In this document: one piece after another, positions 3,669 to 10,493 of the stretch
Layout of the letters: the number at the start of each line of letters is the position of its first letter
Position numbering within the stretch: the first letter of the stretch is position 1
Origin: a virus
Length of the DNA stretch: 23,669 nucleotides
Direction: 5' to 3' (one strand)
IMG/VR virus record: IMGVR_UViG_3300031977_000966
Coordinates: 1 to 23,669 of that record
The notes under the pieces: model-generated
What the model saw: the letters and a program-made list of their open reading frames with translations, nothing else
Database searches by the model: none
Told to the model about the DNA's origin: nothing
Position numbers and translations under genes: made by a program

Positions 3669-4234
3669 CAGAAGTCTACCTCATCTTCAATGGATTCAGT
3701 AACAACATTTGGATCACTAGCTTTATAGCCTTGGGTATTGCCAAACAATGCAGCAACATCCTCAGCGTTCATGTCTCCTGTGTCAACTCCTGCTTCACTG
3801 TTGAGAGACACAATTTGCACACCAACAAGTTTAAGCGTAGTACCATAAGTAACACCATCCTTAAGAATATATGGCTTCTGATAGAACGCGATCTTGACCT
3901 TTGATCCAGAATATACAGGTGTTGATTCATCTGTAACTGGAGTTCCTTCAGTGTCAACAACAGGTGGCTTGTTGGTTTCATTCCAGGAGAACTTGATCTT
4001 GTATTGACCATCAGCTACCTCCTCCCATGGTTCAGGTTTCAATACACTACGCTTAGGGTTCTTGAGTTTAGACTCAGCCCACTTCAGTGTTTCAGTTCGA
4101 TCATCTTCTAGTTTGTCAACTAGCTGCTGACCAACAGTCGTAGCAAGAGAATAACCAAACTTGCTAGGTTTCATCACAGCTTGATAACCTTCAAGGACAA
4201 CAGGCTGTTCAGTTTTAATAATGTTGCGTGGCAT
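3668..4234 (-). CDS. single-stranded DNA-binding protein (T7 gp2.5-like)
   Basis: 188 aa, in the position of T7 gene 2.5 between RNA polymerase and endonuclease I. The centre (SGSKVKIAFYQKPYILKDG, then TTLKLVGVQIVSL) fits the OB-fold core of gp2.5. The C-terminus is acidic and ends IEDEVDF; T7 gp2.5 also ends in an acidic tail with a terminal Phe that binds polymerase and helicase. It coats single-stranded DNA at the fork and coordinates the replisome. The ATG overlaps the RNA polymerase stop by one base (TAATG), and the stop overlaps the hli start. Overall similarity to T7 is weak, so the call rests on tail, core pattern and context. Confidence 0.85.
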   Translation of the reverse strand: MPRNIIKTEQPVVLEGYQAVMKPSKFGYSLATTVGQQLVDKLEDDRTETLKWAESKLKNPKRSVLKPEPWEEVADGQYKIKFSWNETNKPPVVDTEGTPVTDESTPVYSGSKVKIAFYQKPYILKDGVTYGTTLKLVGVQIVSLNSEAGVDTGDMNAEDVAALFGNTQGYKASDPNVVTESIEDEVDF

Positions 4235-6567
4235 TAGCAGAAAAAATAGGTGGATTCAATCACGGATTCTGGGCAGAGATCTCCAATGATCGGCGGTTCA
4301 GTCTCAGCACCTATTTGATCTGCCCATGACTCCAGATAAGAGTTCTCAGCAAATAGATGCATGTAAGTTTGACGGACGATAGTTGATAGCTCAGACATAT
4401 CAGTAGCACGACACAAAACCGAATCATGTATTAGTGAGATCGGTGCATCGAATCGTAATGCTGAAAGATGCAATAAGCTAGCATCTAGACTATGAATAAG
4501 ATTAGGAGCAGTTGCGTTCTTGTGATGAGCAAGATCTACCTTATCACTATCTTCAGTAGCAATCCTGATCTCAACACGACCCAATAATTGCAACTTAATA
4601 GTTTCAGTAAGCTTCTTGTTAAGCTTCTGAGTGACCACAAAACCTGATGGTGTAACCCACTGAAGTTCTGTTGCTCCTCGCTTGATAGCTTTAGCTACCT
4701 CAGCTTCAATCCATTTCATAGCAGCCATAGGACCTGGAACAACCACGTCCATGGCATCACGTACTGCCTTAACAGTAGCAGTTAGATCATCCTTATCAAC
4801 TTCAATACCTTTCTCAAGTAATGCTTCACGAATGTATCCGCGATTACTATGAGGCTTGGCATTGTATGGGACAGTCATAACAACACGTTTGACTGTCTTC
4901 CTGTCCATGTAGTTCCTTACAGACTCAGGGACGTTTGGTTTAGCGTGCTCGGCGACGACGGCGTAAGCGTCTTGGGGTCGCTCTGCTGGCAGGACATTGA
5001 CAAGACCTGCAGTTCTTGCGTCTCTGCATAATCCGGCGAGTATCTGTAGACCACTGCAGGTGGCATCAGTTGCAACTGGCAGAGAAGTGTAATTTCGATC
5101 ACAGTTAATGACACAATGATAGTACTCATCACATGCTGCTAAGAACTGCCAGGGTTCATCAGCTGCCTCCCAAATAGGAAGATTACCAATAGGATCTTGA
5201 GCGACAGCAGAAATCACCTCATCATTCTCAGCTACCCATTGCATACGTTCATGCATAGGAGCTTTATCAAGACCATAAGTAGTAGCTACTTGAAATGCTA
5301 ACCATTCCTCAGCATATGAGTTCATGAAAGCTTCCTGACTAAACTTTAGTAATGACTTACCAAAGTCCGTGTCCTGTGGTGTAAGAAATGCAGGGATAGG
5401 ATAAGCTCTTCCTCTATAATCAAAAGACCAAGGAATAAAGAACTCATCTTTATCTTTGAACATTCTTACAGCTTCCATTGTCATGCGTGTTCTACATGAC
5501 TTCTTGAAAGATGCTGCATTGAGATTCATAGTCTCAGCAGCCCTTCTCCTGTAGTCTTTACGATTCTCTTTATTGGTCGCAATATCTACAGGTTTAGGTG
5601 GAAGAGGTACCTCCACAATAGGAACAAACTTACCAACTTGATAACCTCGTTCTAGTAAAGTCTCAGCGACTCCTACTATAAACGGATTAAGTCGATAACC
5701 AACCTTCTGAATCTTATTCAGGAATTGGTATGGTGTTTCTCCCTGTATTAATCCGACACCGCGACGAACCATGTCGTGGCCTCGCATTACCTCATTCAAA
5801 AGATAACCACCAGATCGATTTTCAGACCAATCATTAGGCTCAATCAACATCGGATAAGCAATTGGACTGAATAACTCTGCAGTAGCCATTACCTCGTCCT
5901 TGATTGACATGAACTCAGGCGTAGGTACTACATAGTTAGATTTCTTACGTCCATCAGATGTCGTGATGATTGTGAACCAACCACAAGATTCCATAATGCA
6001 ATCTAATAGCCAGCCACCTAATCGAATCTTATTTGTTATGTGCCATGGTGTCCATTGTGGTACATCATAACGTTGAATCAGTGTTCGTACAATGACAAAC
6101 TTCTGATGTGTTCCTGTTGTGTTGTGCCAATAATTTTTCTTAATCGTTTCAAGTAACCCAGGACAATTCTTCTCATAGAACTGCATCTGTGCTTCTTGCT
6201 CAATAGCAACACCAATAGCTTTGGTGATGTCCTGTAGTTTATTGGCATCCTTAACAGCAAATACTTTGTCAAAGATAATCTTTAACGCAATTGCTGCTGC
6301 TGCACTTGAATCGATTGGCTCCAAGAATTCATGGATCTCCTTGAAAGCTCTTCCTGTTTTACCTTCTCGAATTCGCTTGTTGGTTCCTTCAATCCGTCTG
6401 GTAACCAAAGGCAAAAGAGTAGAAATGCTACTGCAGCCATATACAGTTGCAGATGCATAGGTTTTCTCCTCCAAGTCCTTTGTGTTCTTACGTAATCGCT
6501 CAAGTCCATGACGAATAGCTTCTCGCTCAAACTTTACTTGTGCCTCAATTTGTGCAGGTGTTGCCAA
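4234..6567 (-). CDS. T7-type single-subunit DNA-directed RNA polymerase (gp1-like)
   Basis: 777 aa (T7: 883). This phage polymerase transcribes middle and late genes after takeover. Visible: PWSFDYRGRAYP (379-390), catalytic Asp501 in PVATDATCSGLQ, the O-helix R556-x3-K560 with Y568 (VVMTVPYNA), PNLIHSLDASLL with H692, and catalytic Asp715 in LIHDSV, aligning with T7 D537, R627, K631, Y639, H784 and D812. The start is TTG: the codon just before it is TGA, and a GAGGAG ribosome site lies 6 nt upstream, so no in-frame upstream start exists. It begins directly after the stop of a 41-aa gene. Residues 270-277 are encoded by a 21-bp stretch found again downstream of terL. Confidence 0.96.
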   Translation of the reverse strand: MATPAQIEAQVKFEREAIRHGLERLRKNTKDLEEKTYASATVYGCSSISTLLPLVTRRIEGTNKRIREGKTGRAFKEIHEFLEPIDSSAAAAIALKIIFDKVFAVKDANKLQDITKAIGVAIEQEAQMQFYEKNCPGLLETIKKNYWHNTTGTHQKFVIVRTLIQRYDVPQWTPWHITNKIRLGGWLLDCIMESCGWFTIITTSDGRKKSNYVVPTPEFMSIKDEVMATAELFSPIAYPMLIEPNDWSENRSGGYLLNEVMRGHDMVRRGVGLIQGETPYQFLNKIQKVGYRLNPFIVGVAETLLERGYQVGKFVPIVEVPLPPKPVDIATNKENRKDYRRRAAETMNLNAASFKKSCRTRMTMEAVRMFKDKDEFFIPWSFDYRGRAYPIPAFLTPQDTDFGKSLLKFSQEAFMNSYAEEWLAFQVATTYGLDKAPMHERMQWVAENDEVISAVAQDPIGNLPIWEAADEPWQFLAACDEYYHCVINCDRNYTSLPVATDATCSGLQILAGLCRDARTAGLVNVLPAERPQDAYAVVAEHAKPNVPESVRNYMDRKTVKRVVMTVPYNAKPHSNRGYIREALLEKGIEVDKDDLTATVKAVRDAMDVVVPGPMAAMKWIEAEVAKAIKRGATELQWVTPSGFVVTQKLNKKLTETIKLQLLGRVEIRIATEDSDKVDLAHHKNATAPNLIHSLDASLLHLSALRFDAPISLIHDSVLCRATDMSELSTIVRQTYMHLFAENSYLESWADQIGAETEPPIIGDLCPESVIESTYFFC
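5738..5758 (-). repeat. 21-bp segment inside RNA polymerase gene shared with terL-thyX gap
   Basis: Coding copy of the duplicated segment (residues G270 to E277, reading GVGLIQGE). The exact partner is at 10659-10679. Confidence 0.8.
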
Positions 6568-7740: not shown

Positions 7741-7889
7741 CAGTTAACCTCCTTGATTTGTTCGATAGTGTGACTTGGAAACTCAGCATGGATATGATCA
7801 ATAAGATCATCCATGTCCTTGCAATCTTCAACTGTTGCAAACGTTAATTTGTTTGTCCAGTTGTCTTCAAGAATTACATTGAATGTCAT
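7740..7889 (-). CDS. 49-aa early protein with structured leader
   Basis: Starts MTFNVILEDNWTNKLTF and ends HTIEQIKEVN; acidic, with a beta-hairpin-like front and a helical back (DCKDMDDLIDHIHAEF). The frame is open further upstream to a TTG, but ATG 7889 is preferred because the intervening bases form two hairpins and an ACTTTC stretch like the leaders of neighbouring genes. No Shine-Dalgarno site is present. The next gene starts in its stop codon. Function unknown. Confidence 0.65.
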   Translation of the reverse strand: MTFNVILEDNWTNKLTFATVEDCKDMDDLIDHIHAEFPSHTIEQIKEVN

Positions 7890-7902
7890 TGTGAGAAAGT
7901 AA

Positions 7903-7949
7903 ACCTCTCTCATTGAGAGGTAATAGGTAAGCCAGGCATTGCACCTGGC
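7903..7949 (-). promoter_or_regulatory. double-hairpin leader of the 49-aa gene
   Basis: Two perfect stem-loops 9 nt apart: GCCAGG/CCTGGC (7931-7936 with 7944-7949, loop CATTGCA on the plus strand) and ACCTCTC/GAGAGGT (7903-7909 with 7915-7921, 5-nt loop). The second ends 13 nt before ATG 7889, and the spacer carries GTTTACTTTC. The first hairpin shares its loop and five of six stem pairs with 8340-8358. Confidence 0.6.
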
Positions 7950-7981
7950 ATGGAGGCTTGAACCTATACCTGAATGTACAA

Positions 7982-8290
7982 TCAAGCGCAGGTATCAACT
8001 GCAAGCTGTGCATAGTTCTCGATGAACCACCAAGTACACCAGTTCTGGATGGATTGAATTGTGTCCATGCCAGCATCTAGTGCGGCCTTGATAATGTTCT
8101 CACCGAAGATGAGCTTGAAATCATCATGAATTCGTTCCCAATACTGGTCATAGAATTCAATCGTGTCTTTGTAGTAGATGTGAGCATGAGCACAACCAGA
8201 TTCACAGCCGTATTCGGCTATGTCCTTGAGTGCGTCCATGTCATACGTGTCGCACAGGTAATCATGTGCGTCAGCGTTGTAGATGGTCAT
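7982..8290 (-). CDS. conserved phage protein with GCxSGxAxxxIYYxDT motif, 102 aa
   Basis: Starts MTIYNADAHDYLCDTYDMD. The signature GCESGCAHAHIYYKDTIEFYDQY resembles a widespread family of small phage proteins with a conserved IYY-x-DT-x2-FYD core followed by two helices; the end (IQNWCTWWFIENYAQLA) fits that family's last helix. Function unknown. ATG 8290 is chosen over the upstream GTG at 8353 because the longer form would translate through two perfect hairpins. There is no Shine-Dalgarno site; the leader carries AATTGTTCACTTT, also found before the 90-aa gene. Confidence 0.78.
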   Translation of the reverse strand: MTIYNADAHDYLCDTYDMDALKDIAEYGCESGCAHAHIYYKDTIEFYDQYWERIHDDFKLIFGENIIKAALDAGMDTIQSIQNWCTWWFIENYAQLAVDTCA

Positions 8291-8300
8291 GTGTAATACG

Positions 8301-8358
8301 AAAGTGAACAATTTGACACTAAAGTGTGTCAAGACACAGGCTAGGCATTGCACCTAGC
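8301..8358 (-). promoter_or_regulatory. double-hairpin leader of the 102-aa gene
   Basis: Stem-loop GCTAGG/CCTAGC (8340-8345 with 8353-8358, plus-strand loop CATTGCA) and stem-loop TTGACAC/GTGTCAA (8313-8319 with 8326-8332), 7 nt apart. They are followed on the minus strand by AATTGTTCACTTT (8313-8301) and ATG at 8290. The upstream stem differs from the copy at 7931-7949 by one compensated base pair. Confidence 0.6.
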
Positions 8359-8389
8359 TGCAAGCTTTTACTTAGCTGTGTTGTATTTA

Positions 8390-8539
8390 TTAATCCACGT
8401 CCTTGTAGACGTAGTCACAGTATGCATTGGGCATACGATCACTCAATGCATCCACTGCATTGCAAGCATCATCCTCATCATGATGACGTGAGGTGAGCAT
8501 GTACTCACCATCATTGGTGAGATAGTAAACGTGAAACAT
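8390..8539 (-). CDS. 49-aa early protein, unknown function
   Basis: Starts MFHVYYLTNDGEYMLTSR, then an acidic helix (HHDEDDACNAVDALSDRM) and the end YCDYVYKDVD. This looks like a small beta-beta-alpha-beta protein. The ending resembles the KDV segments of the neighbouring small genes, hinting at a shared fold or duplication. The leader on the minus strand contains ATTGTCCTTT, related to the AATTGTTCACTTT of two other genes, and lacks a ribosome site. Confidence 0.65.
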   Translation of the reverse strand: MFHVYYLTNDGEYMLTSRHHDEDDACNAVDALSDRMPNAYCDYVYKDVD

Positions 8540-8588
8540 AGTTAGTTAGTATAGAGAATAAAGGACAATTGATCAGTTGTTAATCAGC

Positions 8589-8861
8589 TCAGTAAGCAAG
8601 ATTAACTTGATTAGCAGTGCCAAACTTGGCGCACTTGCTATCAACAAACAACAGGCAATCATTGATCCAACGACCAAGGCTGATGTTGTCGTTCATCACA
8701 AGGTTGAGCAATGCACGACGAGACACGTTGGTGTACAGGTAACCACGTCCATTCTGATAGCGGACAAAGGCAGTACCTTCCTTGACGTTAGCAATGATGT
8801 AATCAGCACAGTCACTGTGACCGTGACGAACCATGATGTTGTCGAACAGTTTGTCGAACAT
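8589..8861 (-). CDS. KTSC-like small protein, first gene of the early cluster, 90 aa
   Basis: Starts MFDKLFDNIMVRHGHSD. The segment AFVRYQNGRGYLYTNVSRR, then ALLNLVMNDNISLGRWIND, follows the pattern of KTSC-type domains (a strand with NG, a Y-x-Y strand, then a helix and S-x-G). KTSC domains occur in phages and near nucleic acid enzymes, but their role is unknown. ATG 8861 is preferred over an upstream TTG at 8885, which lies inside the shared leader motif. This is the first gene after the long noncoding region, so probably one of the first expressed. Confidence 0.7.
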   Translation of the reverse strand: MFDKLFDNIMVRHGHSDCADYIIANVKEGTAFVRYQNGRGYLYTNVSRRALLNLVMNDNISLGRWINDCLLFVDSKCAKFGTANQVNLAY

Positions 8862-8874
8862 AATGAATGAAAGT

Positions 8875-8933
8875 AAAGTGAACAATTGACGACCGTGATG
8901 TCGTCAGACCACGCTCACCCAGTCGAAGGTGAG
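8875..8933 (-). promoter_or_regulatory. double-hairpin leader of the 90-aa gene
   Basis: Stem-loop CTCACC/GGTGAG (8914-8919 with 8928-8933), 7 nt, then stem-loop TGACGAC/GTCGTCA (8887-8893 with 8900-8906). These are followed on the minus strand by AATTGTTCACTTT (8887-8875) and ATG at 8861. The architecture and the 13-nt motif match the leader at 8301-8358. Confidence 0.6.
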
Positions 8934-9236
8934 TCCACAGCTGGCTGTGTCGTGGTGTGCATGAGCAATCTAGCCTGTGCATCGGCATCCAGCATAGCTG
9001 GTACTGCGGTTGTCGTGAGTGTATCCAACCAAGCTGTGCTTGGAAGCCCAATCGCCGGGCAAGGTAACGTCAGTGACGCAGTCAGTTCAGTTGTCAAGGT
9101 TCGATAACCATCATTGCCTGGATGGTGGCAGGTTGTCAAGGAGGTTGTGCAGCTTTGCTGGTTGGCACAGTGCCGAAGCGGCAGCTCAGCTTATTCGGTT
9201 GTCGGTTGGTCTCATCTCTTCTGGTTGAAGTTTCGA

Positions 9237-9739: not shown

Positions 9740-9775
9740 GATAATAAAGACCTAACTCCCGTTCCATAGTTAGGT
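9740..9775 (-). terminator. probable intrinsic terminator downstream of thyX
   Basis: A perfect 8-bp stem ACCTAACT/AGTTAGGT (9750-9757 with 9768-9775) with a 10-nt loop, followed on the minus strand by CTTTATTAT. It starts about 35 nt after the thyX stop and would end the late transcript before the chromosome-end region. The T run is interrupted, so efficiency is uncertain. Confidence 0.5.
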
Positions 9776-9809
9776 ATCATGCGTCCCGAAGGATGAACGT
9801 ACGTTATTA

Positions 9810-10493
9810 TCAATCCCAGACAGCAGAAGCTACTGCAGGGAAGTATTGTTTAACAAGTTGTTGACATTGTTGAGCAATAACCATGTGTTCTTTTTGAGTA
9901 CCATTAGAGATACGCAAATCAATATAATGAATCCAAGATCTAAGATTACCGTGCATATAGAGAGTAGTAGGAGTAGATAGAGGTAATACTTCTCTTGCAC
10001 ATTCTTTAGCTACACCAGCTTGAAGCATCTGTTGATACAGGTGCATAGCTTGGTCATAGTGTTGTTGTAATTGAATTTGGAAGTGTTGTTTTTCTATTGG
10101 ATCAAAGTCATCAATACTATTTTGTCTATTAGATGTATCTTGACTACGAAGATCAGGAATAGAAGGTGTATCAATTACTTGAGCATAACGTTGAGAGAAC
10201 TCTTGAAAGGAGAATGATCTATGTCTAAGAATTTGGGATGCAATAGAGCGTGTGGTATTAATCTTAATACACATGCTTACCATTTCAAAAGGGGACCAAT
10301 GCTTATGATTAATAAGGTATTTAATAAGCTTAGGTGCTGTAGAAGTATTATTTTGATTCTTAGGATTAGATACTCTAGCCATATAAGCTACGAGGTTATC
10401 ACCATCAGGAGTAGAATGAATATACTCAATACTATGCATATTAATAGGGGTGGTAGTAATAAGATTCACAGAGTTGACATTCATCGTCAACAT
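9810..10493 (-). CDS. thyX: FAD-dependent thymidylate synthase ThyX
   Basis: 227 aa. It makes dTMP from dUMP using FAD, methylene-tetrahydrofolate and NADPH. The ThyX signature is RHRSFSFQEFSQRY (90-103), fitting RHRxxSxxExSxRY. HWSPFEMV (65-72) and the C-terminal SWIHYIDLRISNGTQKEH, with the dUMP-binding Arg and the Q-x-E end, also fit the family. The length is usual for phage ThyX. Two or three in-frame ATGs (10493, 10484) are possible starts and neither has a clear ribosome site. It follows terL after a 192-bp hairpin-rich gap. It presumably raises dTTP supply for phage DNA made on an AT-rich template. Confidence 0.95.
   Translation of the reverse strand: MLTMNVNSVNLITTTPINMHSIEYIHSTPDGDNLVAYMARVSNPKNQNNTSTAPKLIKYLINHKHWSPFEMVSMCIKINTTRSIASQILRHRSFSFQEFSQRYAQVIDTPSIPDLRSQDTSNRQNSIDDFDPIEKQHFQIQLQQHYDQAMHLYQQMLQAGVAKECAREVLPLSTPTTLYMHGNLRSWIHYIDLRISNGTQKEHMVIAQQCQQLVKQYFPAVASAVWD

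Follow-up and report, generated by a model that had tools for sequence, protein, structure and literature searches.

The early region of this phage raises the question of what a repeated pair of hairpins is doing in front of genes that lack a Shine-Dalgarno (SD) sequence. The stretch of DNA analyzed (the window) is a 23,669-base part of a T7-like cyanopodovirus (Autographiviridae), a virus of ocean cyanobacteria, with PHROGs matches to RNA polymerase, primase/helicase, terminase, and thymidylate synthase and an RNA polymerase gene (4234–6567, minus strand) with ~70% identity to those of S-RIP2, S-SBP1, S-RIP1, and other polymerases. The early region sits between thyX (9810–10493) and the RNA polymerase gene, and the genes that carry the leaders are on the minus strand. 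The terminase gene and thyX lead straight into the early region (12443–8861), so the contig probably spans a genome-end junction, as a concatemer or a circularised assembly. A Glutamine-II riboswitch (Rfam RF01704, 47.9 bits) is also present at 9750–9802 (minus strand), upstream of a 33-aa ORF.

The initial annotation described the leaders of the genes starting at 8861, 8290, and 7889 as two perfect stem-loops separated by 7–9 nt and followed by an ATG without a ribosome site. The two-hairpin layout is present before all three genes (gaps of 7, 7, and 9 nt), none of the three spacers holds an SD-like purine run, and the 13-nt AATTGTTCACTTT said to be shared by two of the leaders occurs exactly twice in the record (8887–8875 and 8313–8301). 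The stems are not all perfect, as a G at the loop end of hairpin A of gene 8861 is slipped or bulged. The gap has the length described but is not single-stranded, pairing in each leader with sequence upstream of hairpin A. A fourth gene (8539), which had been grouped with the others, does possess a related motif form, ATTGTCCTTT (8569–8560), but neither a double hairpin nor a tRNA-like structure. Each leader unit is a reduced tRNA-like structure (TLS) followed by hairpin B, an AU-rich spacer without SD, and the AUG, with the parts positioned as follows:

8908–8956, minus strand: TLS 1, gene 8861 (MFE fold; ortholog L106 is alike)
8956–8951 with 8913–8908, minus strand: acceptor-like stem of TLS 1, ACCACG with CGTGGT
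8949–8936, minus strand: mini-arm of TLS 1, CACAG-CCAG-CTGTG
8933–8914, minus strand: hairpin A (T-arm) of TLS 1, CTCACC-TTCGACT-GGGTGAG
8913–8907, minus strand: 7-nt gap between the hairpins, gene 8861
8906–8887, minus strand: hairpin B 1, TGACGAC-ATCACG-GTCGTCA (sequence, fold, and ortholog L106)
8862–8886, minus strand: AU/pyrimidine-rich spacer of gene 8861 with the TTGTTCAC motif, without SD; ATG at 8861
8334–8381, minus strand: TLS 2, gene 8290 (match to covariance model R2; MFE fold)
8381–8376 with 8339–8334, minus strand: acceptor-like stem of TLS 2, ACACAG with CTGTGT
8373–8362, minus strand: mini-arm of TLS 2, AAGT-AAAA-GCTT
8358–8340, minus strand: hairpin A (T-arm) of TLS 2, GCTAGG-TGCAATG-CCTAGC
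8339–8333, minus strand: 7-nt gap between the hairpins, gene 8290
8332–8313, minus strand: hairpin B 2, TTGACAC-ACTTTA-GTGTCAA, adjoining base 8333 (discriminator position; fold and model R2)
8291–8312, minus strand: spacer of gene 8290, ATTGTTCACTTTCGTATTACAC, without SD; ATG at 8290
7925–7971, minus strand: TLS 3, gene 7889 (matches to models R1 and R2; MFE fold)
7971–7967 with 7929–7925, minus strand: acceptor-like stem of TLS 3, AGGTA with TACCT
7965–7954, minus strand: mini-arm of TLS 3, AGGT-TCAA-GCCT
7949–7931, minus strand: hairpin A (T-arm) of TLS 3, GCCAGG-TGCAATG-CCTGGC
7930–7922, minus strand: 9-nt gap between the hairpins, gene 7889
7921–7903, minus strand: hairpin B 3, ACCTCTC-AATGA-GAGAGGT, with the type II loop C-A[A/C]TGA-G
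7890–7902, minus strand: 13-nt spacer of gene 7889, without SD; ATG at 7889

Folded separately by minimum free energy (MFE), the three leaders adopted one shape (z = -2.9, -2.7, and -3.3), with an outer stem around a small arm and hairpin A, and hairpin B beyond it. The gap forms the 3' half of an acceptor-like stem, with the 5' half on the upstream side of the small, D-arm-like hairpin. This rules out two independent hairpins; the repeated module stands, but as a reduced TLS plus a single hairpin. Hairpin A corresponds to the T-arm, with a stem of 5–7 bp and a 7-nt loop (for example, TGCAATG, TTCGACT, TTCAACT, and TGCGATT) conforming to the tRNA T-loop pattern U[U/G]CRANN. TLS 1 deviates from the others in possessing a bulge and a 13-nt 3' strand.

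In many phages, a scan of related loci revealed this two-hairpin layout upstream of small early genes, built from different stem sequences. A protein query with gene 8290 returned only the contig copy of the window itself, one with gene 8861 returned only five loci, and one with the Syn5 RNA polymerase gained two further loci. Using a descriptor that combined the acceptor-like stem, T-arm, and hairpin B, 98 sense and 4 antisense matches were found in 2.6 Mb of relatives (distinct matches, 70 versus 3), compared to a mean of 1.6 in 20 dinucleotide shuffles. Without the requirement for hairpin B, there were 94 non-redundant sense matches versus 6 antisense and 6–11 in shuffles, and hairpin B followed 71% of the sense elements versus 17% of the shuffled ones.

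Two covariance models, R1 (10 sequences) and R2 (type I elements, as defined below; 9 sequences), were built with none of the sequences originating from the window. MAFFT alone shifted the type I acceptor strand by one base, and R2 was therefore built from a consistently registered subset plus L020. With seeds that were descriptor hits selected for pairing, hits fitted to the model, and related sequences that are not independent, 97% of cells were paired in the R1 alignment (both sides changed in 17 of 19 pairs), 93% in the R2 alignment, and 93% across 64 R1 hits (60 distinct), the last with 321 two-sided cells versus 91 in shuffles and with pairing that fell to 35–46% when slid by one to three columns. 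The seed-selection problem does not affect the shuffle and antisense controls. R1 matched the window at 7903–7965 (gene 7889 leader, E = 2e-7) and R2 at 8314–8382 (gene 8290, E = 1e-8) and 7906–7972 (gene 7889, E = 5e-6). All R1 hits in two surveys of related loci were on the sense strand, including that of P-GSP1, a minus-strand hit in a record with its genes on that strand. The leader of gene 8861 is too divergent to match R1 or R2, but covaries with its ortholog in L106, which has the same shape built from an acceptor of ACCTATG/CATAGGT, a T-arm stem of TGTAC/GTACA, and a hairpin B of TTGCGTC-AACAAG-GACGCAA. T7 and the pelagiphage HTVC019P had no match to either model. The proposal of a cis-acting RNA module is thus upheld by conservation and covariation in other cyanopodoviruses. 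In a search of Rfam 15 (window and relatives, E up to 1) the leaders matched no described family, including any PhotoRC-type psbA motif, and the sole signal on the leaders consisted of weak tmRNA T-arm fragments in the relatives.

The elements fall into two subtypes. Type I has a UGC loop, a mini-arm, and hairpin B directly after position 73, with the AUG mostly 22–26 nt after hairpin B and the spacer carrying UUGUYCAC. Type II has mostly a UUC loop, often a 10-nt linker with GG, and, after two additional U's, a hairpin B that has a C-A[A/C]UGA-G loop and ends a median of 11 nt upstream of the AUG; an ORF follows 58 of 60, and an SD-like 4-mer occurs in only one. The leader of gene 7889 is mixed, combining a UGC loop with a type II hairpin B. 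In the spacers of related leaders, the motif UUGUYCAC/UUAUCCAC recurs ~15–30 nt before AUGs and is possibly a non-SD signal for translation or protein binding.

The module had been assigned to early genes, which it does precede, but in related phages it also occurs before the capsid gene and psbA. Based on whole-record searches, a TLS was located before the major capsid gene in S-TIP37, P-SSP7, S-SBP1, P-SSP3, Syn5, AP013538, and five IMG/VR genomes, and before psbA in AP013538 and two IMG/VR genomes, with placements checked against annotation and sequence and the IMG/VR capsid and psbA genes recognised by eye from N-terminal sequences. A descriptor hit preceding the P-GSP1 capsid gene is in agreement. 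In the capsid-gene leaders, the AUG lies about 90–135 nt after the matched element. At seven loci (L272, L273, L274, L275, L278, L280, and L281) a longer conserved stem (UUGGC...GGAUACC...GCCGUC...GACGGUGGGA) replaces hairpin B after the capsid-gene TLS, and several related phages have a Glutamine-II riboswitch between psbA and the capsid-gene TLS. A third class of leader was observed in S-CBP4, S-CBP3, S-RIP1, S-RIP2, and GU943054 (L086 923, 1250, and 1629; L092 4416; L088 4534; L084 4305 and 4695; L087 1513), consisting of a hairpin, sometimes with a UNCG-type loop, that in several cases is flanked by TACA...TGTA; there, TGTAGC can pair either upstream or with a downstream GCTACA, the two folds being mutually exclusive. 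This class is not tRNA-like and is a possible RNA switch candidate.

The resemblance to tRNA extends beyond the T-loop. The combined span of T-stem, offset, and acceptor is exactly 12 nt in 37 of 72 elements and 11–13 nt in 64 of 72, as in tRNA, while the split between T-stem and acceptor varies (5/7, 6/6, or 7/5). Together with the folds and covariation, these dimensions identify the elements as mimics of the acceptor/T-arm part of tRNA, with a U[U/G]NRA T-loop arm stacked on the acceptor-like stem in a helix of ~12 bp. In the arm or linker, loops with U55 (UUC) are matched by GG (28:1) and loops with G55 (UGC) by AG (13:0; p = 5e-10 in a test of position 55 against arm-loop position 18 that ignores phylogeny and sets aside 15 ambiguous cases), a covariation compatible with the 18–55/19–56 contact at the D-loop/T-loop elbow. 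Both loop classes occur within single genomes (for example, L098, L117, L248, and L256), so clade structure is not the only source of this covariation. The mini-arms are unusual; in many type II elements their place is taken by a 10-nt single-stranded linker. There is no CCA: position 74 or 75 is U in all 72 elements and C is found at neither, nor at these positions in any of the 98 raw descriptor hits. U without C after the discriminator is the sequence signature of RNase Z preference (PMC7479834).

ARAGORN detected no canonical tRNA in the window, but in some relatives real tRNAs (Asp, Gly, and Pro) occupy the place of the TLS. All 13 terminal tRNAs in the relatives, several on near-duplicate contigs, are followed within 0–5 nt by a hairpin and then an AUG; in four of the 13, read by eye, the hairpin is GGGC-UUCG-GCCC. 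Tandem tRNA genes occur in L124 (784–1021, Ser-Gly-Pro) and L123 (1419–1564, Gly-Asp), where the last one is followed by the hairpin/AUG leader, which suggests that some cyanophage tRNAs double as processing signals.

Of the functions first proposed for the module, RNA processing or stability is the likeliest, though the architecture of TLS and hairpin points to RNase Z and RNase P rather than to RNase III or RNase E. On structural and sequence grounds, the leaders likely mark the sites at which a polycistronic phage transcript is cut by host tRNA-maturation enzymes, leaving mRNAs that start with hairpin B. The early region would be transcribed as one RNA in which every TLS adopts an elbow like that of D-loop and T-loop, with acceptor and T-arm stacked over about 12 bp. 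Host RNase Z would then cleave directly after the discriminator position, with a probable RNase P cut at the 5' side of the TLS. A cut at 73/74 would cause the downstream mRNA to begin at hairpin B or 2 nt before it, so that hairpin B could shield the new 5'-monophosphate end from 5'-end-dependent RNase E, with a short, unstructured leader lacking SD to carry the AUG. In the absence of an RNase P cut, a tRNA-like, exonuclease-resistant 3' end would remain on the upstream mRNA.

Properties of the enzymes are consistent with such cutting. RNase Z cleaves immediately downstream of the discriminator, where cytidines suppress it, and one of two archaeal RNase Z enzymes (with Mg2+) tolerates removal of the D or anticodon arm but not of the T arm or acceptor (PMC7479834), requirements that come from archaeal and B. 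subtilis enzymes rather than a cyanobacterial one. All cyanobacteria have RNase P and RNase Z (PMC10989914), and acceptor/T-stem hairpins are also substrates for bacterial RNase P (PMC4919922). P-SSP7, which carries the TLS element, raises host RNase E upon infection, making a 5'-terminal hairpin a plausible shield; protection of P-SSP7 transcripts from RNase E has been credited to antisense RNA, however, and hairpin-mediated protection is thus not needed to explain transcript survival (PMC9692554). Given its fixed distance from the AUG, hairpin B probably has a role beyond end protection.

The tightness of this distance (~11 nt in one subclass) is the reason that a role for hairpin B in translation is kept as a possibility, and the initial annotation had likewise proposed a translation element. 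If the TLS and/or hairpin B recruited or positioned the ribosome in place of the SD helix and set the distance from the AUG, the type II spacing, the near absence of SD-like sequence, and the type I spacing with its UUGUYCAC motif would follow; the acceptor/T-arm mimicry, the replacement by real tRNAs, and the U74/no-C74 signature would be left unexplained, and an AUG about 90–135 nt from the element before capsid genes fits poorly, making this account on its own unlikely. A promoter with an attached hairpin, also proposed originally, gains no support from the sigma-70-like matches, which are little above the shuffled level (nine -35/-10 pairs in the region versus 5.3 in shuffles) with none on the modules. 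Cleavage by RNase III or RNase E has a precedent in T7, a distant relative whose early mRNA is cut by RNase III, and both enzymes are present in cyanobacteria (PMC10989914). Helices of this length fall short of a typical RNase III site; the T-loop, the discriminator signature, and the acceptor/T-arm geometry point specifically to tRNA enzymes; and T7 itself lacks a match to either model, all of which render these nucleases a very improbable explanation.

It is similarly hard to credit hairpin B as an intrinsic terminator, or attenuator, regulated by the TLS. A few hairpins are followed by T-rich DNA (for example, CTTTTATTT), and a pattern scan gave weak terminator-like calls for hairpin A 2 and hairpin B 3, but there is no consistent U-run (four or more consecutive T follow hairpin B in about 6 of 60 among the type II elements listed), the distance from hairpin to AUG goes down to about 10 nt, and the same architecture precedes capsid and psbA genes that are presumably expressed by the phage polymerase. 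The scarcity of T-runs and the immediacy of the AUG also argue against the hairpin being an old tRNA terminator, as would be expected if the elements were relics of tRNA genes acquired together with early genes. Intact tRNAs and variants of tRNA size do occur at the same place, but compensatory change keeps the stems in dozens of copies and the short forms recur at many genes and genomes, capsid and psbA included, such that decay has very little to recommend it. Repeats of an integrase attachment site would also be a poor fit, judging by stem sequences that differ from copy to copy.

Cutting by tRNA enzymes, the reading favored here, has parallels elsewhere. In mitochondrial tRNA punctuation, tRNAs are cut out by RNase P and RNase Z, releasing the flanking mRNAs; like t-elements and mascRNA, such punctuation is known from organelles and eukaryotes. 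The phage leaders resemble mitochondrial punctuation in placing tRNA-shaped units between the genes of a polycistronic RNA, with cutting at both ends predicted for the phage, but differ in that the units are mostly non-decoding mini-structures, each with a 3' hairpin as the would-be mRNA 5' end. Plant mitochondrial t-elements and mammalian mascRNA/menRNA are tRNA-like as well and are cleaved by RNase P, RNase Z, or both (PMC4919922). As in the phage, these are non-decoding structures that act as RNA processing signals, but they define the 3' ends of single transcripts, whereas the phage copies are repeated before early, psbA, and capsid start codons. The RNase III sites and 5' hairpin leaders of T7 are likewise repeated processing signals in an autographivirus, at early genes and before the capsid gene, though the phage leaders differ in structure and predicted enzyme, and neither T7 nor HTVC019P matches the models. 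The tRNA-like domain of tmRNA is also a reduced tRNA with T-arm and acceptor, and two related-phage elements weakly match its T-arm, but the phage elements have no encoded CCA, tag reading frame, or tmRNA pseudoknots. The open-licence papers searched contain no description of a tRNA-like leader repeated in phage mRNAs.

A bolder and rather doubtful extension is that T7-like cyanophages swapped the RNase III logic of T7 for tRNA mimicry at early, photosynthesis, and capsid genes, and that hairpin B, as an RNase Z-trimmed 5' end at a fixed distance from the AUG, also replaces the SD helix, coupling processing, stability, and translation. These cyanophages rank among the commonest viruses infecting the most abundant photosynthetic organisms, and the leaders bear on how cyanophage genes are expressed while host RNase E is induced. 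The predicted cut sites are sharp and occur in phages with cultured hosts (P-SSP7, Syn5, and S-TIP37). If true, cutting at these leaders, which recur ahead of early genes, psbA, and the capsid gene, would be a way for phages to exploit host tRNA enzymes that has not been described before. Some phage “tRNA genes” may likewise owe their retention to punctuation instead of decoding.
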